A stretch of DNA of 35,277 nt, taken from contig NZ_AZUY01000002.1 in assembly GCF_000513935.1 (NCBI RefSeq), positions 206,828 through 242,104 on the forward strand. The letters run 5' to 3'. Positions 4,244 to 15,135 of this stretch are shown here, one piece after another. The first letter of the stretch is position 1; every line of letters starts with the position of its first letter. The translations under genes and the position numbers were made by a program. The DNA is from Mesorhizobium sp. WSM3626. Its GTDB lineage: Bacteria; Pseudomonadota; Alphaproteobacteria; Rhizobiales; Rhizobiaceae. The notes below the pieces were generated by a model that worked only from the letters and a program-made list of their open reading frames with translations, had not been told where the DNA came from and ran no database searches.

Positions 4244-4380
4244 GGCCGGCCAGGCTGCTCGGGCACGCCCCGTTGCCGTTCACATGATATGCCAGTGATC
4301 ACGATGGCTTGGCCTGACCATTGTGTTGGCCCGGCGACTTGCCCATAAAGGTCCTGTTTGATCGTGGACCGCATCATCCG

Positions 4381-6021
4381 TTGAAGAAGCTTTTTCCAAT
4401 CGTCGCGTTCATTGCCGTTGCATTGATCAGCATGACCATGGCGGGATTCGCTTATTTCGCGACGCAGGAAGCCGCCCGTATCAAGTTCGAAGGGGCGGCC
4501 GATGACGCCCTCAATCGGATCGAGAGCCGCATCGACCTGCATCTGTCGCTGCTGCGCTCGACGCAGGCCCTGTTCGACGCGCGCAACGGCGATATTTCCC
4601 AGAACGAGTTCAAGGCCTTCTTCAAGGCGCTGGATGTCGACAGCAATTTCGGCGGCCTGCGCGGCATCGGCTTCCTGCGGCTGGTCAAGACGGGCGACGA
4701 GGAAACGGTCGAACGCGACATCCTCCACGATTTCGGCGCCAGCCATTCGGTCTATCCGGATACGACGCAGCCCTGGCGCACGCCGGTTGCGCTTTTCGAG
4801 CCGCTGGATCCGTCCAACCAGGCCAGCATCGGCTACGACATGTTCAGCGAGCCGGTGCGGCGCGCGGCGATCGAAAAGGCGATGGCCGACGACCAACAGC
4901 ATGCAAGCGGGCTGGTGCAGCTCGGCCAGGGCACGGGTGCCGCGCAGACCTTCACCGGCTTCCTGGTCTTCGTGCGGCTCAACGTCGAAACGGCGCCGGA
5001 GGTCATCAACGCATCGCGCTCCTCGACCGCCGGCTTTCTCTATGCCGCCTTCCGCGCCCGGGATCTGTTCCAGATCGCGCTGAGCCGCGCGCCGCTGCTG
5101 CCGGTCAACACAGAGATCTATGACGGAACGGCAAACAGCGACAATCTGTTGTTCCGCTCGGAGACGCCACCGGCTTCATCCTTGGGAGACCGGCTGCTGG
5201 TCACCCGCAAGATGACCGTGGCTGGGCGCCCGTGGACCGTGTTGTTCAGGCCGACCAGTGCCTTCTCGCAACCCTCGTCGCGCGCCATCCCTGTGATGCT
5301 GGGCCTGTTCGGCCTGCTCCTGGCCGGCGCCATCGCGCTGGTGGCGCGCTATCAGGAGCGGGCCTATGACGCGGTGTCGGCCTTGCATGAAACAACGGAA
5401 AAGAGCCTGCTCGAAAAGGACCTGATGCTGCAGGAGATGAAGCATCGCATCAAGAACTCGATCACCAGGGTGCTGGCGATCGCCCGGCAGACGGCGTCGC
5501 GGGCAACCGACGTCAATGAGTTCTCCGCTTCCTTCTCGGCCAGGCTGCAGGCGATGGCCGCCTCGCAGGACATGTTGACGCGCTCGCGCTGGCAGAAAGC
5601 CGACCTTGCCGACCTGCTGCGCATCGAACTCGGCCAGGTGTTCGGCAAGGAGCTGCCGGAGGGGCTCCTCTCAGGCCCGGAGGTGCTGCTCGATGAAACC
5701 ACGACGCAGGCGCTTGGCCTGACCTTTCATGAACTCGCCACCAATGCGCTGAAATATGGTGAAGCCGGCAATTCCGCGAATTCGTTCAAGGGGGATTGGG
5801 CGCTGAAAGTGGAATGGTCGCTGGAAGGCCGTGGACGCGAGCGGATCCTGGCGCTGAACTGGCGGGAAGCTGGAAAAAACAAGATCGAGGCGCCGGCCGT
5901 GACCGGATTCGGTACGAAACTGATCGACCTCAACGTCACCCGCGAATTGCGCGGCACGATCAAGCGCGATTTCCAGGCTGACGGCCTGAAGGTGGAAATC
6001 AGAATTCCGTTGGTCGGCTGA
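4381..6021 (+). CDS. CHASE-domain HWE-family sensor histidine kinase
   Basis: This is a membrane sensor of ~546 aa. The first helix (KKLFPIVAFIAVALISM) anchors an extracellular CHASE domain (~residues 50-250, with GLRGIGFLRL). A second helix (AIPVMLGLFGLLLAGAIAL, ~305) and a short coiled linker lead to the HWE/HisKA_2 kinase core. Visible motifs are phospho-acceptor His355 in MKHRIKN, N-box FHELATNALKYG, the diagnostic WxE motif (NWREAG), and GFGTKLI. TTG 4381 is chosen since the product then starts at the first helix; TTG 4321 is an alternative, and no strong ribosome site is seen for either. No receiver gene is adjacent. The ligand is unknown. Its position after xylG does not prove a link to xylose. 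Confidence 0.85.
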   Translation: MKKLFPIVAFIAVALISMTMAGFAYFATQEAARIKFEGAADDALNRIESRIDLHLSLLRSTQALFDARNGDISQNEFKAFFKALDVDSNFGGLRGIGFLRLVKTGDEETVERDILHDFGASHSVYPDTTQPWRTPVALFEPLDPSNQASIGYDMFSEPVRRAAIEKAMADDQQHASGLVQLGQGTGAAQTFTGFLVFVRLNVETAPEVINASRSSTAGFLYAAFRARDLFQIALSRAPLLPVNTEIYDGTANSDNLLFRSETPPASSLGDRLLVTRKMTVAGRPWTVLFRPTSAFSQPSSRAIPVMLGLFGLLLAGAIALVARYQERAYDAVSALHETTEKSLLEKDLMLQEMKHRIKNSITRVLAIARQTASRATDVNEFSASFSARLQAMAASQDMLTRSRWQKADLADLLRIELGQVFGKELPEGLLSGPEVLLDETTTQALGLTFHELATNALKYGEAGNSANSFKGDWALKVEWSLEGRGRERILALNWREAGKNKIEAPAVTGFGTKLIDLNVTRELRGTIKRDFQADGLKVEIRIPLVG

Positions 6022-6477: not shown

Positions 6478-6774
6478 TTATTGTTGATTAACGTCGTCTT
6501 TTTCTGGGCGGATCGTGTTCGACGCCATCACGAGGCCGGATATGGTCAACGAAGCGTCAAGGCTACCGTCTGGCCGCATCTTCCAGACAAGTTGATCGTA
6601 CTCGTCCTCCAACGCGGGATCGACCGCGAGGCATTTGGTGACGACATGCTGCGCCTGCCCCTGTACGTCGCCCATCGCGAAGGGGCGCTCAGCGTTGCAT
6701 TCGTCAGCAGTCGCAAAAACACTGACAGGGACCTGCAATTCCCGGCATTCGGCCAACGCGGTTATGTGTTGCAT
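6478..6774 (-). CDS. Hypothetical 98-aa protein, EcfG-promoter controlled
   Basis: I do not recognise the family. The start at ATG 6774 (MQHITALAECREL) is chosen because GAGGAA lies ~9 bases upstream and the promoter at 6799-6824 would lie inside a longer reading frame beginning at 6816. The protein has no signal peptide or membrane helix, and contains three Cys (~10, 25, 47) and an acidic, charged C-terminal half. The promoter predicts a short ~18-nt leader. By regulation it is a general stress response output; molecular role unknown. Confidence 0.65.
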   Translation of the reverse strand: MQHITALAECRELQVPVSVFATADECNAERPFAMGDVQGQAQHVVTKCLAVDPALEDEYDQLVWKMRPDGSLDASLTISGLVMASNTIRPEKDDVNQQ

Positions 6775-6798: not shown

Positions 6799-6824
6799 AA
6801 CGATCAACATCATCAAAAAGTTCC
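6799..6824 (-). promoter_or_regulatory. EcfG-type promoter upstream of the 98-aa gene
   Basis: On the minus strand GGAAC (6824-6820) and CGTT (6802-6799) are separated by 17 bp, within the accepted EcfG spacing. It is the only one of the nine with N17. ATG is 24 bp downstream of the -10. Confidence 0.75.
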
Positions 6825-6919
6825 TGTCATTCCAACGGGGCTCTCACGGTCGAAGGTGCCCCCGCGTTGATCGATCGGCGATTTCAACAGCGCGCACGGT
6901 GAGGAGAGCAGGAGCTAAG

Positions 6920-7096
6920 TCAGGTCAACTGCCAAAGAACGGCCAGCGACATTTTCGCGGCCAGCGCAAGAACGAGCCCCTTCATCAAACCCTTGCCTGC
7001 TTCAGGGAGTGTTCTTGCGGAGGATTCGGATTCCTGAAATTCGCCCATCGAAATCCGGGCGGCTTGTTCCAGTCTGTTCATGTCGGCAACCGTCAA
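6920..7096 (-). CDS. Small 58-aa hypothetical protein with C-terminal hydrophobic helix
   Basis: TTG 7096 is preceded by GGGAGGAA at ideal spacing. ATG 7081 is an alternative, giving 53 aa. The product starts MTVADMNRLEQAARISMGEF, continues with a polar linker, and ends with a hydrophobic helix (LMKGLVLALAAKMSLAVLW), suggesting a tail-anchored or membrane-surface peptide. No family is recognised. It lies between the HWE kinase and the 98-aa gene on the same strand. GGAAC and CGTT occur upstream at 7130-7157, but 19 bp apart, so EcfG control is doubtful. Confidence 0.5.
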   Translation of the reverse strand: MTVADMNRLEQAARISMGEFQESESSARTLPEAGKGLMKGLVLALAAKMSLAVLWQLT

Positions 7097-7229
7097 GACG
7101 TTCCTCCCGTACCGCGCTGCAAGCCTGCCAACGATGTCCGAAAAAGGGGTGGGTTCCGGCGATGTCTGGGAAAAACAGTATTCGCTCTTATGGTGAACAG
7201 CCGGTTAAGAATCGCTGCTTGCCGGGCTC

Positions 7230-8264
7230 TCACTGCGTCTCGAAATTGCTGTGCGGAACGACCAGGCGGTATTCGAGGTGGCCGTCGCCGATATCGAGGT
7301 TCGCGGTTCCGTTCAGGGACGCTGGCACCACACGCTCCAACGCGACGCTGCCGAATCGCTTTTGACCGCTCCCATCGTCGTCGGTCCCTATCGTTTCGGC
7401 CCATGTCAAAGACAAGGCCACGTCCCCCGTGGCGGCGGCGTTGAGGTCGGCGGTGACCTCGACGAAACCGTCCGGCCGGGACAGGGCGCCGTAGCTGACG
7501 GAGTTGACGGCGAGTTCATGCATCGCCAGGCCAATATGCAGCGCGGCGTTGGGATTGAGGTAGGGATTGGCGCCACGGAAGCGAAGGCTGTGCGATGGGT
7601 TCGCTCCGTAGCGGCCGACCTGGCTCGCCACCAGTTCATGAAGGGCTGCCCCTCGCCAGTTGGAGGATGTCACCAGATCCTGGGAGGAGGCCAGCGACTG
7701 CAGCCGGCCGCGGAAGCGCGTCAGGAAGTCGCCGACGCCGTCGGAATAACGACCGGTCTGGGTCGCGATGCTCTGGATGATCGCCAGCAGGTTCTTCGAG
7801 CGGTGGCTGACTTCACGCAGCAACGTCGTCAATGTCTGTTCGCGCCGCTTCTGCTCGGTCGTCTCAACCATGGTGGTGACGACGCCTTGTACATTGCCAT
7901 CATCGCCTCGGTCGGCATCGACCCAGATCTGAAACCAGCGAACGCCGTTCTCGACCGGGACACTGATTTCAAGGCGCTGAGCATCGCCGGTTGCGACCAC
8001 CTCGCGCTTGGCGGCGGCGATGCGGTCGGTATGCGCCATCGGCAGGATGCCATTCCCCTCGACCTCATCGGAGGCCCAGGGCGCGCGCATGTTGCGGGCC
8101 CATACGGTCTTCATCTCGCGATCCTGATAAAGAACGGAAATGCCGGCATTGTGCAGGGCGTGAAGAAGGGCACGGCCAAGCTGCATGCCGCTTTCAGCGG
8201 GGTGCATGGCGATGACTTCATCGCTCCGTGCGCCTTCCGTCTTATCTGAAGTCCTGGAGCGCAT
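7230..8264 (-). CDS. Soluble PAS-like/HWE-family histidine kinase
   Basis: This is a 344-aa cytoplasmic kinase. A PAS-like input domain (~30-140, ISVLYQDREMKTVWARN ending TMVETTEQKRREQ) precedes the HWE core: phospho-acceptor His154 in EVSHRSKNLLAI, RLQSLASSQDLV, N-box MHELAVNSVSYGALS and WxE in LTWAET. The GSR kinases of Rhizobiales that phosphorylate PhyR belong to the HWE/HisKA_2 group. This gene has its own EcfG promoter (8294-8318) and lies ~530 bp from phyR, so a PhyR kinase/phosphatase role is a good inference. Start 8264 has a weak ribosome site, and in-frame ATG 8207 is possible. The PAS ligand is unknown. Confidence 0.85.
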   Translation of the reverse strand: MRSRTSDKTEGARSDEVIAMHPAESGMQLGRALLHALHNAGISVLYQDREMKTVWARNMRAPWASDEVEGNGILPMAHTDRIAAAKREVVATGDAQRLEISVPVENGVRWFQIWVDADRGDDGNVQGVVTTMVETTEQKRREQTLTTLLREVSHRSKNLLAIIQSIATQTGRYSDGVGDFLTRFRGRLQSLASSQDLVTSSNWRGAALHELVASQVGRYGANPSHSLRFRGANPYLNPNAALHIGLAMHELAVNSVSYGALSRPDGFVEVTADLNAAATGDVALSLTWAETIGTDDDGSGQKRFGSVALERVVPASLNGTANLDIGDGHLEYRLVVPHSNFETQ

Positions 8265-8293
8265 AGGTCAATCTGTTCACCCAACTCAGGCTG

Positions 8294-8318
8294 AACGGCT
8301 CACTGTCGAATGAGTTCC
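8294..8318 (-). promoter_or_regulatory. EcfG-type promoter upstream of the HWE kinase
   Basis: Minus-strand GGAAC (8318-8314), N16, CGTT (8297-8294). The -10 lies 29 bp before the kinase start at 8264. Confidence 0.85.
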
Positions 8319-8425
8319 CTAAAAGCGGTCCGCCGGACGGTATCCATTGAAGGACGCCGCCCGGCGGTGGCTGGAAACCGTTTGAGGGGTGCGGCTTCCA
8401 GTGTTCGCCTGATAGCTCGCCAGGC

Positions 8426-8590
8426 TCACGCCCGCCTGAACAGGCCGGCCAGAAGCGAAATGATCAGGAAAGCCAGGAAGATGAAGAACAATATCTGCGC
8501 GATACCGGCGGAGGTGCCGGCAATGCCGCCGAAACCAAGCGCGCCGGCGATAATCGCCACGACGAGAAATACGAGCGCCCAGTAAAGCAT
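8426..8590 (-). CDS. DUF1328 (UPF0391) small membrane protein
   Basis: This 54-aa protein starts at ATG 8590 with AGGAG at good spacing. It begins [20 protein letters not shown] and ends [13 protein letters not shown], the complete DUF1328 signature: two hydrophobic helices joined by [12 protein letters not shown]. The family is common in proteobacteria and often stress induced, with no defined biochemical role. An exact EcfG promoter lies 29 bp upstream, making it a direct GSR target. Confidence 0.92.
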
Positions 8591-8619
8591 GGCTCATCTC
8601 CTTCCAATGATGCGACAAA

Positions 8620-8644
8620 AACGTGGGTGGATGCGGTTTGTTCC
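8620..8644 (-). promoter_or_regulatory. EcfG-type promoter of the DUF1328 gene
   Basis: Minus-strand GGAAC (8644-8640), N16, CGTT (8623-8620). The -10 is 29 bp before ATG 8590. Confidence 0.88.
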
Positions 8645-8795
8645 ACCCTTCGCCGAAAAAGACGGTGCTTGCAAATCGTTCCGGGCGGCGCGGGCCGGAA
8701 AGTCGCCGGTGGCCGATCCGGCTTGTCAAAAAGACCGCCGGAAACAATCGCATCCAGCGGCCTTGATGTCTCTGTCCTGCGTCCGAGGCAGCGAT

Positions 8796-9590
8796 CTATG
8801 CGGCAGCCTTGGCCTGCCGGTCGAAGAACAGCGCCTGGCTGATCAGCGCCTTGACCATGTCGGGATTGAACGGTTTGGTCACGAGGAAGGCGGGTTCGGG
8901 GCGCTCTCCGGTCAGGAGACGTTCGGGAAAGGCGGTGATGAAGATCACCGGCACCGATGTCGAAGAGAGGATTTCGTTCACGGCCTCGATGCCTGAACTG
9001 CCGTCGGCGAGCTGGATATCGGCCAGGACCATCTTCGGTCGGGTCTTGCCGAACATCGTCACCGCTTCGGCATGGGTGCGCGCCGTTCCCACGACCCGAT
9101 GACCGAGGCTTTCGACCATCTCCTCTATGTCCATGGCGATCAGCGGCTCATCCTCGATAATCAGCACGTCGGTCGCTACCTGACGGGAAATCTCGTTGCT
9201 TGCCTGGGCGAGCAGCTCGGAGAACTGCTGGTCGCTGACATCGAGGATTTCGGCCGCCTCGTCCTCGCTGAAACCTTCGACGGCAACCAACAGGAAGGCC
9301 TGGCGGGGAAGCGGCGCGATCGCATTGAGATTGGCGGCCGCGCGCTGCTCCCAGGCCGACTGTGACTGCTCCTGCGGAACGCGGATGGCAACGGATGTGA
9401 AGAGCTTGGCAAAAACCTTGTACAAGGCGATCCGGTCACTCGACGCCTCCGGGAAGATGTCGACATCGGCAATGATGGCCTCAAGCATCGCGGCGACCAG
9501 CGCGTCGCCGCTCTCCTGCGAACCCGAGACGGCACGCGAGAAGCGCCGCAGGAACGGCAGATGCGGAGCGATGGTGGCGGACAAGCTCAT
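8796..9590 (-). CDS. phyR: General stress response regulator PhyR (anti-anti-sigma response regulator)
   Basis: This 264-aa protein has the PhyR architecture: an EcfG-like sigma domain without DNA-binding competence (~1-137) fused to a C-terminal receiver (~140-260). Receiver residues are the acidic pair Glu146/Asp147, phospho-acceptor Asp191 (MVLADIQLADG), Thr in FITAFPE and Lys in LVTKPF. Phosphorylated PhyR binds NepR and frees EcfG. ATG 9590 is chosen because MSLSATIAPHLPFLRRFSRA is the normal N-terminus and GGGAGA precedes it; a longer frame extends upstream through the promoter and is not credible. Divergent from nepR-ecfG, with its own EcfG promoter giving positive feedback. Confidence 0.97.
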   Translation of the reverse strand: MSLSATIAPHLPFLRRFSRAVSGSQESGDALVAAMLEAIIADVDIFPEASSDRIALYKVFAKLFTSVAIRVPQEQSQSAWEQRAAANLNAIAPLPRQAFLLVAVEGFSEDEAAEILDVSDQQFSELLAQASNEISRQVATDVLIIEDEPLIAMDIEEMVESLGHRVVGTARTHAEAVTMFGKTRPKMVLADIQLADGSSGIEAVNEILSSTSVPVIFITAFPERLLTGERPEPAFLVTKPFNPDMVKALISQALFFDRQAKAAA

Positions 9591-9661
9591 GATGGACGTC
9601 TCCCTCAAATGACGCGGTTGGATGCATTGCAGGTCAAGCTGATTGCAAGCCCAGTGAAAAT

Positions 9662-9686
9662 AACGCCGCTTTTCCGAAAAAGTTCC
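9662..9686 (-). promoter_or_regulatory. EcfG-type promoter of phyR
   Basis: Minus-strand GGAAC (9686-9682), N16, CGTT (9665-9662). The -10 is 71 bp before ATG 9590. It is separated by only 8 bp from the oppositely directed promoter at 9695. Confidence 0.9.
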
Positions 9687-9694
9687 GCTGATGT

Positions 9695-9719
9695 GGAACG
9701 AATCAGTGGCAATGGCGTT
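9695..9719 (+). promoter_or_regulatory. EcfG-type promoter of nepR-ecfG
   Basis: GGAAC (9695-9699), N16, CGTT (9716-9719). The -10 is 88 bp before the nepR start, indicating autoregulation of the sigma factor operon. Confidence 0.9.
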
Positions 9720-9807
9720 TTGACGCTGGGTTGGGCAAACCAGACGAGGGCAGCGCTTGTCTTGTGTTGTGTGTGAGCGGCTTGAGCTCTGGGAATAAAA
9801 GGGCGAA

Positions 9808-10011
9808 ATGAAGGATATGACGAAAGATATTCTGGCTGGCGCCGCGGGCAGGCGCCGGAACGGCGTCGGCGACCCTCTTGGGCCGAACTCCGAAATCGGG
9901 CGCAAACTCAAACAATATTATGACGAGCTGGTCTCCGACAATGTGCCGGATCGCTTCGCCCGGTTGCTCAGCCAACTGGAACAGGCCGAACCCGCACAGA
10001 AGAAGGACTGA
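9808..10011 (+). CDS. nepR: Anti-sigma factor NepR
   Basis: This 67-aa protein has the conserved NepR core (GPNSEIGRKLKQYYDELVSD followed by VPDRFARLLSQL), which forms the two helices that clamp either EcfG or phosphorylated PhyR. The N-terminal ~28 residues are basic and variable, as usual in the family. ATG 9808 is used; in-frame ATG 9817 is also possible. The stop lies 3 bp before the ecfG start, so the two are co-transcribed and probably translationally coupled, which keeps the anti-sigma and sigma in balance. Confidence 0.95.
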   Translation: MKDMTKDILAGAAGRRRNGVGDPLGPNSEIGRKLKQYYDELVSDNVPDRFARLLSQLEQAEPAQKKD

Positions 10012-10014
10012 GGC

Positions 10015-10566
10015 ATGGCAGCGGTCTCCCAAGGCTTCAAGACCGATTTGCTTGGGGCAATCCCAAGCTTGCGGGCTTTTGCCGTGTCGCTGACTCAGAA
10101 TGCCGACAAGGCCGACGATCTCGTTCAGGAAACGCTGGTCAAGGCCTGGGACAAGCATGAGAGCTTTCAGCCCGGCACCAACCTCAAGGCGTGGCTTTTC
10201 ACGATCTTGCGCAATGAATTCTATTCGCAAATGCGCAAGCGCGGCCGCGAGGTGCAGGACAGCGACGGCATCATGACGGCCCGGCTTGCAGTACACCCTG
10301 CCCAGCACGGCCAACTCGACCTCAAGGATTTTCGCGGCGCTCTCGAGCAATTGCCGGAGGACCAGCGCGAAGCCATCATCCTGATCGGCGCTTCGGGCTT
10401 CTCCTATGAGGAGGCCGCTGAAATTTGCGGTTGCGCGGTCGGAACGATCAAGAGCCGCGTCAGCAGGGCCCGCACGCGCCTGCAGGAAATCCTGAAAATC
10501 TCCGGGGAGGACGAGTATGGTCCCGATGCGATCTCGGCTCAGGTCACGGGGACGGCGGCGCATTGA
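10015..10566 (+). CDS. ecfG: General stress ECF sigma factor EcfG
   Basis: This 183-aa ECF sigma factor shows region 2 (~10-80: AFAVSLTQNADKADDLVQET, then LKAWLFTILRNEFYSQMRK) and region 4 (~115-165: LPEDQREAIILIGASGFSYE, then GTIKSRVSRAR). The start ATG 10015 immediately follows the nepR stop. Together with phyR and nepR it defines the alphaproteobacterial GSR core. It directs polymerase to GGAAC-N16/17-CGTT promoters, of which nine are found nearby. The C-terminal extension (~168-183) is not recognised. Confidence 0.96.
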   Translation: MAAVSQGFKTDLLGAIPSLRAFAVSLTQNADKADDLVQETLVKAWDKHESFQPGTNLKAWLFTILRNEFYSQMRKRGREVQDSDGIMTARLAVHPAQHGQLDLKDFRGALEQLPEDQREAIILIGASGFSYEEAAEICGCAVGTIKSRVSRARTRLQEILKISGEDEYGPDAISAQVTGTAAH

Positions 10567-10600
10567 ATGCGGGCCGAATAACGGCGATTTGGACGTCGCG

Positions 10601-10987
10601 TCAGTCTCTGCCAGGGGAGCCGCGACCGTAGGCCAGCGCCACGGCTTCGACGAGGTCTTCGCCTGAATAGGGCTTGGTGACCAGCCTCACCCCGGGGAAC
10701 GACGCCTTGATCTCGTCCGCATCCGAATAGCCGGACGCGAAAACGAACGGGACGCCGGTTTCACGCAGGCCCGCGGCGAATTCGAGCGTCGAGGCACCGC
10801 CCAGCACTAGATCGACAATGGCCGCGTCGAAATCCGTCGCGACCTTCCGGCCATCGACCTCGGACAGGTCGCGGGCAACCACCACCTCGCTGGCACCGTG
10901 GTCGCGGCAGAGTTGCTCGACATCCATGGCTATGAGGTATTCATCCTCCAGGACAAGAATGCGCAATCCGTCAAGTAATTGAGGCAC
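10601..10987 (-). CDS. Single-domain response regulator, FAT GUY-like
   Basis: GTG 10987, preceded by AAGGAG with a 9-base spacer, gives a 128-aa receiver with no output domain. Key residues are acidic Glu14/Asp15, phospho-acceptor Asp59 (IVDLVLGG), Ser85 and Lys105 (LVTKPY). The motif PFVFASGY (~80-87) resembles the PFxFATGY signature of FAT GUY regulators (SdrG, MrrA), which relay phosphate in the alphaproteobacterial general stress network. It converges on ecfG with 34 bp between them. A longer frame starting at 11293 lacks receiver content upstream. The partner kinase is unknown; the two HWE kinases here are candidates. Confidence 0.85.
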   Translation of the reverse strand: MPQLLDGLRILVLEDEYLIAMDVEQLCRDHGASEVVVARDLSEVDGRKVATDFDAAIVDLVLGGASTLEFAAGLRETGVPFVFASGYSDADEIKASFPGVRLVTKPYSGEDLVEAVALAYGRGSPGRD

Positions 10988-11274
10988 AGGCAATTGCTCC
11001 TTGAAACGTCGGGAGTCATGATCGCAATTCGGTGTGTTGTCATTTAAAAAAGATATGCGCCGCCGATGAAAGGGCAATCTCAGGCAGGCGCGTGGAACGG
11101 ACCTGCTGGCGGCAGGCATTTGCAAATGCCAAGCAAGACCGAGCGCGTTTTTCAAGCCGGCAATATCCTTGCGAGGAATGGCCGTTACGGCCGCTGATCT
11201 GACGCAGCGCTTCTTGCCAGAGTTGGGGGATCGGGTGCGCATGACCTGGTTTTCGCCTAGTTTGCCCCGGCATC
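10988..11274. other. Intergenic stretch without a supported gene
   Basis: No reading frame here has a convincing start and protein character. It holds the leader of the minus-strand response regulator, a perfect 16-bp palindrome (11115-11130), and sequence leading to the EcfG promoter at 11275. A GGAAC at ~11091 has no CGTT at the right distance. Confidence 0.6.
11115..11130. repeat. Perfect 16-bp palindrome
   Basis: GGCATTTGCAAATGCC is identical to its reverse complement. It lies 128 bp upstream of the response-regulator start (10987) and 145 bp before the EcfG promoter at 11275. It could be a regulator binding site. No second copy was noticed. Confidence 0.5.
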
Positions 11275-11299
11275 GGAACCTTGAGACGCGCATCGCGTT
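11275..11299 (+). promoter_or_regulatory. EcfG-type promoter of the DUF883 operon
   Basis: GGAAC (11275-11279), N16, CGTT (11296-11299). The -10 is 30 bp before ATG 11330. Confidence 0.88.
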
Positions 11300-11329
11300 T
11301 GAAATCGAGCAATCACAAGGAGTTAAGCA

Positions 11330-11656
11330 ATGGCAACCGCCGCAGGGAAAACCGCCAACGAAGCGCGGACGAATTCAGATCTTGAAGCCGACATCAGGCA
11401 GTTGAAGGCCGATATCGACAAGCTCACCAAACAGTTGGCCCAGATCGGTGAACACGGCTACGGCACGGCCCGCCGGGCGGCGGCCGAAGGCGTCGAGCAG
11501 TTGCGCGCCCAAGGGGAGGCCGCCTTCGACAGCCTGCGCGGCAACGCCAGGGATATCGAGGCGCAAATGGTGGCAAGCGTACGCGAAAAGCCGGTAACGT
11601 CGCTGGCAATCGCCGCTGGCATCGGCTTCCTGTTCGCGCTGCTCGCGCGTCGCTAG
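11330..11656 (+). CDS. DUF883 (ElaB/YqjD-like) inner-membrane anchored protein
   Basis: This 108-aa protein starts at ATG 11330, preceded by AAGGAG. Residues ~18-80 are a charged coiled coil (LEADIRQLKADIDKLTKQL). The C-terminus is one membrane helix with a twin-Arg end (LAIAAGIGFLFALLARR). This layout is that of ElaB/YqjD, tail-anchored proteins induced in stationary phase and, in E. coli, able to associate with ribosomes. Here an exact EcfG promoter makes it a GSR target. It is followed 10 bp later by a membrane protein gene, matching the yqjD-yqjE order. Confidence 0.9.
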   Translation: MATAAGKTANEARTNSDLEADIRQLKADIDKLTKQLAQIGEHGYGTARRAAAEGVEQLRAQGEAAFDSLRGNARDIEAQMVASVREKPVTSLAIAAGIGFLFALLARR

Positions 11657-11666
11657 TTTCGCCGAG

Positions 11667-12146
11667 ATGGGACTGCTGGCTTCCCTGCTCTCGGGTTTCG
11701 CTTCGGGTGAAACAATGGCTGTGGTGCGCCGCGCGCGCACGGCGGCCATCGTCTATGCGCTTGCAGCGCTGGCGGCATTCTGCGGCCTCGGCTTCCTGGT
11801 CGGGGCGGCTTACATCTGGACATCGGCGCGCTATGGATCGCTGGCTGCCGCGGTTGGTTTCGGTGTCGGCTTCCTGGTGATCGCGGGCCTTATTGTTCTG
11901 ATCCATCGGCTGGTGTCGGACGCCCAGGTCCGCCGCGAAGCAAGGCGGCGCAAGGCCGACATGAAGGCGATCGGCATTACGGCCGCGCTCGCGGTGCTAC
12001 CGACATTGCTCAAGGGAAAAAGTGGGCTCAAGGGAAAAGGGGGGCTCGGGATTATTCTTGGTCCGGCCGTGGCACTCGCGGCCTATGCCATCTACCGCGA
12101 GAACGTGAAGTCCGACGCCGATCGTCCGGATGCCGGCGAGGGATAG
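11667..12146 (+). CDS. Membrane protein, phage_holin_3_6/YqjE-like
   Basis: This is a 159-aa integral membrane protein. Two strong helices lie at ~27-50 (IVYALAALAAFCGLGFLVG) and ~60-83 (AAAVGFGVGFLVIAGLIVL). A basic cytoplasmic stretch follows (VRREARRRKADMK), then a weaker hydrophobic C-terminal part. This fits the YqjE/holin-superfamily proteins encoded next to DUF883 genes. ATG 11667 has a poor ribosome site, so translation may be coupled to the preceding gene; in-frame ATG 11715 is an alternative. Role unknown; probably envelope remodelling under stress. Confidence 0.75.
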   Translation: MGLLASLLSGFASGETMAVVRRARTAAIVYALAALAAFCGLGFLVGAAYIWTSARYGSLAAAVGFGVGFLVIAGLIVLIHRLVSDAQVRREARRRKADMKAIGITAALAVLPTLLKGKSGLKGKGGLGIILGPAVALAAYAIYRENVKSDADRPDAGEG

Positions 12147-12316
12147 CAGCGCCGGCCGGCCCGCCTCGTGTCACTTCGACAGATATTCCAGCGCCATCGA
12201 TATCTCGGCGAAGACGCCGTCGCGCTGGACACAGTTTCCACCCTGCTATCCAACCAGGTCTCCAACGGCTTGCCGTGATGTCCTTGCCCCCGCCGGCCCG
12301 AGACAGCCTTGCAGCC

Positions 12317-12341
12317 GGAACCATCCTTGCGAGGGACCGTT
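12317..12341 (+). promoter_or_regulatory. EcfG-type promoter of the 66-aa membrane protein
   Basis: GGAAC (12317-12321), N16, CGTT (12338-12341). The -10 is 57 bp before ATG 12399. Confidence 0.85.
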
Positions 12342-12398
12342 ACCCGAGCGTGATTTGCCGATCGGGCCAGCCAACGCGAAGCCAGATGAGGAACCGCC

Positions 12399-12599
12399 AT
12401 GACCAAGAACATTCCCGAAAACAAAGCGCGTCAGGGGCGATGGGGTTGGCATGGGTTCCAAATCCTGATCGCCGGACTGCTCCTTGCGCTCATCGCGTGG
12501 GGTGTCGTCGAGATTTACGGCGAGCTGATCAAAGCACCGAACACAGGCGAACAACACGTCCCCGCTCCGCCGGATTCCGGCCCGGCGCCCTCCGGCTAA
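12399..12599 (+). CDS. 66-aa single-pass membrane protein, unknown function
   Basis: ATG 12399 follows a GAGGAA-containing leader. The product has a basic N-terminus (MTKNIPENKARQGRWGWHG), one helix (FQILIAGLLLALIAWGVVEI), and a Pro-rich tail likely on the periplasmic side. I know no family. The dedicated EcfG promoter makes it a GSR output. It converges on the lipid kinase gene with 28 bp between them. Confidence 0.75.
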   Translation: MTKNIPENKARQGRWGWHGFQILIAGLLLALIAWGVVEIYGELIKAPNTGEQHVPAPPDSGPAPSG

Positions 12600-12627
12600 A
12601 TCGCGGCTCCCGTGGCTTCACACCGCA

Positions 12628-13548
12628 TTAGGCGGCCTTCGCCTGGGCCACGCTGGCCGGCACCAGGACATTGAGCGCTCCGGGTTTGATTTCGATTGTC
12701 GTCTCACGATCGAGCCTGACCAGTTCGCCATCCATCACGGCGCGAAATTTTCTGCCGCCGGAATGGATTTTCAGCACTGCACGGTCGGCCTGATGGATTT
12801 CGACGTGCTCGTTGTCGCGCCATTTGCCGCGCGCCATGTTGAAGAAGAACTTGACCAGTTCAGCGCGCTGTTGCGCCACCGTGACGTAGATGCCAAGCAC
12901 GCCGCCCGCAGGGTTGTCGGCATAAGGCAAATGGCCTTCGCCGAACAGATTGTTGGTGACGCCGATGCCCGATATGCGCGCCGTCATCTCGGCGTCGCCA
13001 ATGCCGAGCGTAACGTTCATTGCCGGGGGGTTCTTGATCGTCGCCCAGGCGGCCTTGGCTGAAGCACCGATCTTACCCAGGCGCGACCCGAATTCCATCT
13101 TCTGGCGCAGTTGCACCATCTTGGCATGCATGCCGATCGAGAACTGATGAACGAATGGCTGGCCATTGGCCGTGGCCATGTCGACCGCAATGATTTCGCC
13201 GTCGGCGAAGGTTTCCAGGGCGGCATCGAGCGACTGCGGAATGCCGAGACCGCGCGCGAACAGGTTCATCGTGCCGGCCGGCAATATGGCGAGCGCCTTT
13301 TTCTTGCCCATCAGCCTGGCAGCCGCGGCTGAGATGGTTCCGTCGCCGCCGCCGGCGAGCACGACGTCGATGGTGCGGCGCGAGACGGCGCTGTCGAGGG
13401 TTTCCGCGATATCCCGGCCGGCAACGATGTCGATGCTGAGAGAATGGCCCGCCGATTCCAGCGTCTGACGCATCCGGTCGGAAAAGGCCATGAGATCGGT
13501 GGTGCGCAAGGTGCCGCCGTCCCGGTTCAGCACCGCTGCAAAATTCAT
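12628..13548 (-). CDS. Diacylglycerol kinase-family lipid kinase (YegS/DgkB-like)
   Basis: This 306-aa soluble protein has the DAGK catalytic domain: the ATP-binding GGGDGTIS motif (~66-73), then LPAGTMNLFARGLGIP (~90-105), and a C-terminal beta-sandwich with FRAVMDGELV, where the family's second conserved motif lies. Such enzymes phosphorylate diacylglycerol or related lipids using ATP. ATG 13548 gives the normal N-terminus (MNFAAVLNRDGG). The EcfG promoter at 13603-13627 places it in the GSR, suggesting membrane-lipid turnover as a stress output. The actual substrate (diacylglycerol, ceramide or phosphatidylglycerol) cannot be told from sequence. Confidence 0.88.
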   Translation of the reverse strand: MNFAAVLNRDGGTLRTTDLMAFSDRMRQTLESAGHSLSIDIVAGRDIAETLDSAVSRRTIDVVLAGGGDGTISAAAARLMGKKKALAILPAGTMNLFARGLGIPQSLDAALETFADGEIIAVDMATANGQPFVHQFSIGMHAKMVQLRQKMEFGSRLGKIGASAKAAWATIKNPPAMNVTLGIGDAEMTARISGIGVTNNLFGEGHLPYADNPAGGVLGIYVTVAQQRAELVKFFFNMARGKWRDNEHVEIHQADRAVLKIHSGGRKFRAVMDGELVRLDRETTIEIKPGALNVLVPASVAQAKAA

Positions 13549-13602
13549 GCCCGGCTCCGCTGTTCAATCAAAACTGGCCCAGGCCTGCCTAGCCGGAGTC
13601 GA

Positions 13603-13627
13603 AACGCAGTGGACCAGGAAAGGTTCC
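13603..13627 (-). promoter_or_regulatory. EcfG-type promoter of the lipid kinase gene
   Basis: Minus-strand GGAAC (13627-13623), N16, CGTT (13606-13603). The -10 is 54 bp before ATG 13548. The 285-bp gap 13549-13833 contains this promoter and the divergent one at 13740, and no gene. Confidence 0.87.
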
Positions 13628-13739
13628 GGTTGTGCTGGAATCCAGGCCAGTATCCAAGGTCGGAATTCAGGGGTTGCGTCGGCTGGCGGTTACGCATCCA
13701 CTTGGTGGTTTTGGTCTCGGATGCCGCGGTTTTTTTGTC

Positions 13740-13764
13740 GGAACAACAGCATGGTCACGACGTT
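13740..13764 (+). promoter_or_regulatory. EcfG-type promoter of the PRC-barrel gene
   Basis: GGAAC (13740-13744), N16, CGTT (13761-13764). The -10 is 69 bp before ATG 13834. Confidence 0.87.
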
Positions 13765-13833: not shown

Positions 13834-15135
13834 ATGATCCGCACCCTTTTAGCGACAACCGCCCTTGCAACAATGGTTGCAACCGGTGCCTTCGCGCAAA
13901 ACGCAACCCCAGCCCCCGCGAACCCACCGGCCGCTCAGGAGCCGGCAGCGCCAGTGATCCGGGCGGAAGGCAGCATCGTCACCAATATCATCGGCGAAAC
14001 CGTCTACAACGGCACTGGTGACAATGCCGAGAATATCGGCAAGGTCACTGACGTGGTGTTTGACAAGGACGGCATGGCGAAGTCGGTCGTCATCGGTGTC
14101 GGCGGTTTCCTTGGCGTCGGAACCAAGAACGTCGCCTTCGACTATGACAAGCTGCAATGGGCCGAGAAGAACGGCGACCGCTGGCTCGTGGCCCAGACAA
14201 CCAAGGACGAGCTGAAGGCGCATCCGGAGTTCGACAGCAAAGCTTATGCGCCGGCCCCGGCCGCACCGACGACTGCCCAGGCGCCGGCTACGTCGACCGA
14301 CGCAGCACAGAAGCCCGCAGAGGCGAACGCGCAACCGGTGAAACAGGCTGATGGCAACCTGGCCACAAACATCATTGGCGAAAATGTCTACAACGGCACA
14401 GGCGATGACGCGCAGAAGATCGGCGACGTCAACGACATCGTACTGACCAAGGAAGGCAAGGCGCAGTCGCTGATCATTGGCGTGGGCGGCTTCCTCGGCA
14501 TAGGCGAAAAGAACGTCGCCTATGATTTCGCCAAGGCGCAGTGGGCGCAAAAGAATGGCGACCGCTGGCTGGTGGCGCAGACCACCAAGGAAGAGCTGCA
14601 GGCCCAGCCGGACTTCAACCGCAAGGCCTATGATCCGGCGCCGGCCACGACGGCATCGAACGCGCCGGCGGCAACCGCGCCGGCAACGGCGCCTGCTGTC
14701 ACGACAGCCCCCGCTGCCGCTCCGGCGAACAAGACAGCGGCGGCGCCGGCTGACGCCACGGCTCCTGACCAGACGAAGACCGCGGCCATCGACAAGTCGA
14801 AGCTGACGGAGATGCCGATCGGCGAGATCAGGGCTGACGATCTGAAGGGCACGACGGTCTATGGCGCCAACGACGCCAAGGTCGGCGAGATCGGCGATGT
14901 CGTGCTGACGCCCGACAAGAAAACCGATGCCGTGATCGTCGATGTCGGCGGCTTCCTCGGCATCGGCTCGAAGGAGGTCGCGGTCGGCATGGATAATTTG
15001 AAGTTCATGACCGACAAGAACGGCAAGAAGTACCTTTATACGACCTTCACCAAGGAGCAGCTTGAGAAGCAAGCGGCTTACAATAAGGGCTCCTACGCCC
15101 AGAAGCGCGACGAGCAGCGCCTCGTCGTCCGGTAG
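13834..15135 (+). CDS. Exported protein with three PRC-barrel domains
   Basis: This is a 433-aa protein. ATG 13834 follows GAGGAGAG and starts a Sec signal (MIRTLLATTALATMVATGAFA, cut before QN). Three PRC-barrel repeats follow at ~48-138, ~174-264 and ~335-420. Each carries the GVGGFLG(V/I)G or DVGGFLGIG signature, and the first two share NGDRWLVAQTTK. Long Ala/Pro/Thr-rich linkers separate them, as in other periplasmic stress proteins. PRC barrels usually mediate protein or ligand contacts; no enzyme motif is visible. Repeats 1 and 2 are closer to each other than to 3, indicating an internal duplication. EcfG-controlled. Confidence 0.9.
   Translation: MIRTLLATTALATMVATGAFAQNATPAPANPPAAQEPAAPVIRAEGSIVTNIIGETVYNGTGDNAENIGKVTDVVFDKDGMAKSVVIGVGGFLGVGTKNVAFDYDKLQWAEKNGDRWLVAQTTKDELKAHPEFDSKAYAPAPAAPTTAQAPATSTDAAQKPAEANAQPVKQADGNLATNIIGENVYNGTGDDAQKIGDVNDIVLTKEGKAQSLIIGVGGFLGIGEKNVAYDFAKAQWAQKNGDRWLVAQTTKEELQAQPDFNRKAYDPAPATTASNAPAATAPATAPAVTTAPAAAPANKTAAAPADATAPDQTKTAAIDKSKLTEMPIGEIRADDLKGTTVYGANDAKVGEIGDVVLTPDKKTDAVIVDVGGFLGIGSKEVAVGMDNLKFMTDKNGKKYLYTTFTKEQLEKQAAYNKGSYAQKRDEQRLVVR

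Follow-up and report, generated by a model that had tools for sequence, protein, structure and literature searches.

A conserved island of EcfG-type promoters around the general stress response regulators of Mesorhizobium sp. WSM3626

Introduction

Why would the targets of a sigma factor lie beside the gene for that sigma factor if each of them has a promoter of its own? The question is raised by a 35,277 bp stretch of DNA from Mesorhizobium sp. WSM3626 (contig NZ_AZUY01000002.1, positions 206,828 to 242,104; hereafter the window), in which phyR, nepR and ecfG, regulators of the general stress response (GSR), stand among nine exact EcfG-type promoters. We read this as a GSR core locus in which the nine promoters precede three regulatory and six output units that are likely co-induced when stress frees EcfG, and we put the probability of this reading at about 0.9.

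The mechanism of the PhyR-NepR-EcfG switch has been described for the family, and the canonical alphaproteobacterial GSR locus has divergent phyR and nepR-ecfG, GSR-dependent promoters and a kinase nearby, as in the window (PMC8103513; this and the other papers are cited here from extracts). The canonical locus is described in that extract by its regulators only, whereas the locus in the window adds six output units with their own promoters. The core locus is known, and the extended island represents a known type of stress-control locus at an unusually large size.

Promoter Sites and Regulators

The initial annotation of this DNA had claimed nine exact sites of the form GGAAC-N16-CGTT or GGAAC-N17-CGTT between positions 6799 and 13764. 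A pattern search on both strands returned eight N16 sites and one N17 site at identical coordinates. All nine are correctly oriented and lie 24 to 88 bp before an ATG, and zero further N16 or N17 matches exist in the window, both as claimed; the accompanying chance expectation of 0.27 (2 x 35277 / 4^9) is also arithmetically right. The EcfG-type promoters are:

6799..6824, minus strand: N17 promoter, 24 bp before C98, a gene for a protein of 98 amino acids (aa)
8294..8318, minus strand: N16 promoter, 29 bp before the HWE kinase gene
8620..8644, minus strand: N16 promoter, 29 bp before the DUF1328 gene
9662..9686, minus strand: N16 promoter, 71 bp before phyR
9695..9719, plus strand: N16 promoter, 88 bp before nepR-ecfG
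11275..11299, plus strand: N16 promoter, 30 bp before the DUF883-like gene
12317..12341, plus strand: N16 promoter, 57 bp before S66, a gene for a 66-aa protein
13603..13627, minus strand: N16 promoter, 54 bp before the lipid kinase gene
13740..13764, plus strand: N16 promoter, 69 bp before the PRC-barrel gene

With the spacer allowed to run from N14 to N19, both strands of the window hold 12 matches against 1.43 expected (100 dinucleotide shuffles; the largest shuffle count was 4). The remaining three of the 12 are N19 matches, two of which lie outside the 6799 to 13764 stretch. The N19 match at 7130-7157, before an open reading frame (ORF) of 58 aa, was rejected as a tenth promoter; N16 or N17 sites precede this ORF in 2/47 relatives and N19 sites in none.

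The regulatory genes at the locus are:

7230..8264, minus strand: HWE histidine kinase with the HRXXN motif HRSKN and a weak PAS match (Pfam and translation)
8796..9590, minus strand: phyR, anti-anti-sigma response regulator (Pfam PhyR_sigma2, PhyR_sigma-like and Response_reg)
9808..10011, plus strand: nepR, anti-sigma factor (Pfam NepR, 56.4 bits; cut-off 25.7)
10015..10566, plus strand: ecfG, extracytoplasmic function (ECF) sigma factor (NF009199, 356.6 bits; cut-off 219)
10601..10987, minus strand: single-domain response regulator with an inferred GTG start, facing ecfG and lacking an EcfG-type site
4321..6021: CHASE-domain HWE kinase with the motif HRIKN, beside the island and lacking an EcfG-type site upstream

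PhyR scores 390 bits against its NCBIfam family (cut-off 240), and its full length aligns with solved chains that bear the name PhyR or response regulator. NepR is matched over 40 residues by two solved NepR chains; against the NCBIfam NepR equivalog model it scores 25.1 bits, short of the cut-off of 100. The ecfG gene starts 3 bp after nepR, and its product would belong to ECF15 by analogy, the label being carried by the Rhizobium etli and Sinorhizobium meliloti counterparts. SdrG/MrrA-type regulators carry a FATG[Y/G] motif. The single-domain regulator reads FASGY at this point, and its solved matches are ranked 2lpm, which we take to be an S. meliloti regulator, and then SdrG 5ieb (three matches). 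HWE_HK domains were found in both kinases, together with the HRXXN sequence that is given as a GSR kinase motif (PMC8103513). The closest solved structures to the kinase at 7230-8264 are blue-light-activated histidine kinases, and the CHASE kinase is possibly a second input to PhyR.

The phyR and nepR promoters are divergent, with their -35 boxes 8 bp apart in the window (9662-9719). The 5' ends of these boxes are 8 to 11 bp apart in 57/57 pairs from the genus, and the 23 core pairs from the family and order sets described below have distances of 7-11, 20, 28-33, 40 and 55. For the nine pairs spaced by more than 15 bp, a Rayleigh test gave p values of 0.02 to 0.06 at periods of 9.5 to 11, with relatedness not corrected. 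Steps of one helical turn are hinted at, and this is suggestive only. An order-wide pattern search for divergent pairs matched in 70/297 genomes and included pairs at many other distances, some of them resembling chance palindromes.

Distribution of the Motif in the Genome

Density was compared genome-wide, as the initial annotation had proposed for checking its claim of a compact island. The genome searched comprises 6,283,661 bp in 106 contigs. The stretch holds 1.29 sites/kb against 0.020 sites/kb elsewhere, a difference of about 64-fold; the density elsewhere would predict 0.14 sites where nine are found. For N16 alone, eight of the 99 sites in the genome are in the stretch. There are 136 genome matches at N16/17 compared with 93 at N18/19 and 77 at N14/15, the two control spacing pairs. 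This amounts to an excess over background of about 51 sites, nine of them within the 7 kb stretch, and part of the regulon is located elsewhere in the genome. A reversed pattern exceeds the real count at each spacing pair, with 185 (N16/17), 204 (N18/19) and 223 (N14/15) matches. This excess reads as base composition; the reversed pattern is not a matched control and has no bearing on clustering.

The next densest 7 kb stretch, judged by eye from the N16 list, is on contig C24 at 56.1-59.4 kb and contains four sites, two of which are a single palindrome read on both strands. An ECF sigma factor paralog at C24:57059-57520 is accompanied by a second group of N16/17 sites, smaller than the island (locus L208, G000:C24:48000-63000); one site precedes a small, exported-looking protein. 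Across 41 genomes of the genus, the number of N16/17 matches per genome ranges from 79 to 166.

Conservation Within the Genus

Of 119 Mesorhizobium genomes, 117 yielded an EcfG ortholog. Sixty of the 117 loci were selected, comprising 48 with an EcfG identity of at least 95% and 12 of the 13 below 95%. These loci contain 474 N16 and 48 N17 sites, while each other spacing from 10 to 23 occurs 3 to 27 times. Eight to ten sites are present in 49 loci, six or seven in six loci, and three or four in five. Thus, the nine-promoter island is not peculiar to the WSM3626 genome.

The sites are specific to particular genes. Counting a site when it lies no more than 200 bp before a gene, an upstream site is present for nepR in 59/60 loci, for phyR in 58/60 and for the HWE kinase at 7230-8264 in 44/60. 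The output genes behave similarly, with sites before DUF1328 (60/60), the DUF883-like gene (55/60), the PRC-barrel gene (52/53), the lipid kinase gene (52/53), S66 (49/52) and C98 (46/50, the gene being present in 50/60 loci). Neighbours of these units serve as internal controls. The single-domain regulator, the holin-like gene, the CHASE kinase and ecfG itself each have an upstream site in 0/60 loci, although some of the matches to the single-domain regulator and the CHASE kinase are only 30% identical and possibly other proteins. Further neighbours gave 0/58 for a glycine-zipper lipoprotein, 0/49 for a sulfatase and the 2/47 mentioned above for the 58-aa ORF. Per unit, the enrichment falls at spacings 16 and 17, and other spacings are scattered, with a maximum of six (DUF1328 at N21).

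Two further features distinguish the N16/17 sites. Two bases after GGAAC, G occurs in 2/458 distinct N16 sites, compared with 1126/2379 of the other GGAACs in the same loci; the search pattern itself does not impose this constraint. A start codon with a ribosome-binding-site-like sequence (RBS-like start) lies downstream of 498/522 N16/17 sites versus 38/140 sites at other spacings. The enrichment extends from about -4 kb to about +6 kb relative to ecfG. The five loci with three or four sites retain those around DUF1328, phyR and nepR, and these sites can therefore be regarded as a constant core. The reading as a GSR core locus whose EcfG-type promoters are physically clustered is supported by the protein families, by the genome-wide density and by the conservation of site, spacing and gene in related genomes.

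Conservation Beyond the Genus

The best 80 of 565 loci with a relative were compared, spanning Mesorhizobium, Aminobacter, Phyllobacterium, Devosia, Chelativorans, Nitratireductor, Brucella/Ochrobactrum and others; some of these genomes are shared with the genus set, and the two sets are not independent. Many island units recur across the 80 loci. In Phyllobacterium and Devosia their order and strand differ, and they mostly still lie within about 7 kb.

In other genera of the family (34 loci from 33 genera, out of 176 genomes with a match) we counted 177 N16/17 sites, where the mean of 12 control spacings predicts 14.5. For other families of the order, 40 loci from 20 families gave 188 sites where 13 were expected; they come from 77 matching genomes, five of which belong to the window's own family, and 43/120 genomes in the order search had no EcfG match at threshold. 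RBS-like starts follow 151/177 sites in the family set and 141/188 in the order set, compared with 24/87 and 27/79 for the respective controls. Some loci beyond the genus (L241, L275, L284 and L285) have zero sites. The enrichment near ecfG therefore reaches other genera and families and is weaker there than in the genus.

Comparison with Characterized Loci

In Rhizobium etli, the EcfG1 motif GGAAC-N16-CGTT is carried by 19/56 units that are down in an ecfG1 mutant (PMC3892343). The R. etli ecfG1-phyR-tcrY locus shares the motif with the window, and an EcfG1-dependent non-coding RNA, ReC64, lies just beyond phyR-tcrY. In the extract of that paper one output is described at the locus, an RNA, whereas the window has six protein-coding output units. 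In Sinorhizobium meliloti, transcription of rsiB1 and rsiA1 depends on rpoE2, and their start sites have been mapped downstream of RpoE2 promoters (PMC3616915). SMc01508 and SMc01509, whose tags closely follow rsiA1 (SMc01505), also respond to RpoE2 (PMC6180224). The likeness to the window extends from these RpoE2-dependent regulators to a PRC-barrel gene with a GGAAC-N16-CGTT promoter, located elsewhere in the S. meliloti genome; a cluster of nine promoters is not described for the rpoE2 locus in the extracts of the two papers (PMC3616915, PMC6180224).

The closest published data are from M. loti MAFF303099 under heat shock (PMC3989490). The ecfG gene mll3697 was heat-induced (M 2.4), and four genes from its vicinity rank in the top 50 for heat induction: the PRC-barrel gene mll3685 in third place, the transcriptional regulator gene mll3694, mll3692 and mlr3707. 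The strands of mll3685-mlr3707 all fit the island when the ecfG strand is taken as mll and the opposite strand as mlr, and this region is very likely the same island as in the window. The gene mll3694 (COG T) fits a Crp/Fnr regulator gene that has been deleted from the window (see below) and that MAFF303099 seems to keep. These data agree with the reading of the window as a GSR island. The genes mll3685-mlr3707 are not described as one cluster in the extract (PMC3989490), and a search of titles and abstract openings in the open-licence literature did not find a Mesorhizobium GSR island with clustered outputs. None of the literature covered, in extracts as above, reports as such an output cluster of this size, its conservation or its spread through the order.

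Proposed Circuit and Alternative Explanations

In the circuit that we propose, PhyR would be phosphorylated under stress by the HRXXN kinase (7230-8264), perhaps joined by the CHASE kinase (4321-6021). Phosphorylated PhyR would bind NepR, EcfG would be released, and RNA polymerase carrying EcfG would read the nine promoters. Three of these (kinase, phyR and nepR-ecfG) would feed back on the switch, and six would drive C98, DUF1328, the DUF883-like/holin-like pair, S66, the YegS-like lipid kinase and the PRC-barrel protein.

Several points weigh against this reading. The N17 site and the kinase site (44/60) are less constant than the others. The output part is dispensable, since five of the 60 loci from the genus have no more than three or four sites. 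The M. loti tags were assigned to the island by order, strand and two product names and not by sequence. EcfG dependence in Mesorhizobium sp. WSM3626, like the phosphotransfer and the envelope role, is something that we infer from sequence, and an EcfG-like paralog might read some of the sites, a point taken up below.

The alternative that survives best concerns the meaning of the proximity. The outputs may lie near the regulators merely by slow decay of a gene neighbourhood, with each unit able to work from its own promoter anywhere and the closeness having no function. A promoter for each unit makes proximity unnecessary for co-regulation, and distant N16/17 sites do exist, e.g., upstream of a gene on contig C36 that is PRC-like as judged from its sequence. 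However, the island genes switch order and strand between genera and yet mostly remain no more than about 7 kb away and keep a site, which hints at selection and is no proof of it. In most Mesorhizobium loci the DUF883-like gene is on the plus strand, at roughly 1-2 kb; in Phyllobacterium and Devosia it is on the minus strand, at roughly 4-7 kb. We consider the odds of a functionless proximity to be even. The converse would be a regulon island of the whole order, where the neighbourhood of ecfG collects and keeps outputs with their own exact promoters while content, order and strand turn over, and where closeness itself is selected. We put this forward tentatively, as an idea that has the odds against it. 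Operon logic cannot answer the question, because every unit has its own promoter.

It is also conceivable that the sites are real ECF promoters, some of which have a paralogous sigma factor and not the local EcfG as their main reader. One EcfG-like protein (46% identity) and 14 weaker matches (22-38%) are encoded in the genome. EcfG2 of R. etli activates the ReC64 promoter in E. coli (PMC3892343), and in S. meliloti 27/40 RpoE6 targets are held in common with RpoE2 (PMC6180224). On the other side, the sites track the nepR-ecfG locus through much of the order, and just 1/19 EcfG2-dependent units of R. etli carries the motif (PMC3892343). We regard a main role of a paralog as unlikely. Finally, exact nine-base matches number about 40 per spacing in the genome and the reversed pattern is commoner than the real one, but an origin of the cluster by chance or composition is ruled out by the shuffles, by the genome density (nine sites for 0.14 expected in 7 kb) and by conservation that is specific for spacing and gene across the 60 genus loci.

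Proposed Output Genes of the Island

The genes of the six output units in the proposed GSR island are:

6478..6774, minus strand: C98, 98-aa protein, no Pfam family
8426..8590, minus strand: DUF1328 small membrane protein of 54 aa (Pfam, 58.1 bits; cut-off 27)
11330..11656, plus strand: DUF883-like membrane protein (Pfam, 23.6 bits, below the cut-off of 27)
11667..12146, plus strand: holin-like membrane protein, 10 bp after the DUF883-like gene
12399..12599, plus strand: S66, 66-aa protein with one hydrophobic segment, no Pfam family
12628..13548, minus strand: YegS-like lipid kinase, DAGK_cat (Pfam, 76.7 bits; cut-off 23.6)
13834..15135, plus strand: protein with three PRC-barrel domains (Pfam, 130.6 bits over three stretches)

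Most of the products look like membrane, lipid-related or exported proteins, the PRC-barrel protein having a signal-peptide-like start by eye, and a role in the cell envelope is likely as judged from these sequences.

The relatives of C98 that were listed are mostly 108 aa long, and those that were read begin in a lipobox-like manner. C98 is without about 10 residues near the start that form a lipobox-like stretch (e.g., LLVIGCS) in 6/8 of the relatives read. C98 is a probable lipoprotein whose anchor may have been lost in this lineage. Its homologs number 131, and among the 120 listed no function emerged; any names they bear read hypothetical or uncharacterized, the exceptions being a single "Lipoprotein" and a single "conserved exported hypothetical".

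The DUF883-like protein scores 16.6 bits against the NCBIfam ElaB model (cut-off 139), and five of its orthologs when scanned gave one match above the Pfam cut-off, three below it and one without a DUF883 match. The holin-like protein in the window has no match to PF07332 (holin superfamily III), which 3/5 of its orthologs match below the cut-off of 28.4, at best with 24.2 bits. The holin-like gene is probably part of the DUF883-like operon, since the gap between them is 10 bp and an own site is absent in all 60 loci. The order of the two genes (11330-12146) presumably resembles that of the yqjD-yqjE pair in E. coli. ElaB is RpoS-regulated according to the title of PMC6389858, and membrane proteins of one kind may therefore be under the control of two general stress sigma factors that are unrelated to each other.

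Deleted Regulators and Flanking Sequence

Two regulators that most loci of the genus keep are deleted from the island in the window, as judged from remnants in its sequence:

11152..11196, plus strand: remnant of a Crp/Fnr regulator gene, 15 codons, with 13/15 residues matching the gene of relatives
12174..12221, minus strand: remnant of a third HWE kinase gene, the last 16 codons (3' end), with 13/16 residues matching

The Crp/Fnr gene lies between the single-domain regulator and the DUF883-like gene in 45/60 genus loci, often with its own EcfG-type site, and the third HWE kinase gene lies between the holin-like gene and S66 in 42/60. Compared with the locus of one relative (L068), the missing pieces amount to about 0.68 kb (Crp/Fnr) and about 1.45 kb (kinase).

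The right flank of the window (15180-35277) contains no N16/17 sites. The genes scanned there are ordinary ones for metabolism and transport, encoding a sulfatase, an M19 dipeptidase, a GCV_T-like protein, three amine oxidase family proteins and parts of ABC transporters. No known RNA family at gathering score and no tRNA was found in the window. A search for plasmid relatives among 72,556 plasmid records gave one 384 bp match at 80%, with the own or a very near genome possibly excluded.

Implications

If an order-wide regulon island exists, selection would act on closeness to the sigma factor gene, beyond the possession of a promoter alone. The promoters here are exact, closely packed and conserved, and the locus is therefore a convenient one for testing whether proximity to a sigma factor gene matters. 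At least three small genes without a known role here (C98, DUF1328 and S66) are marked as likely GSR outputs in Mesorhizobium, and the island offers a compact, easily deleted set of genes for testing the effect of the GSR on the cell envelope.

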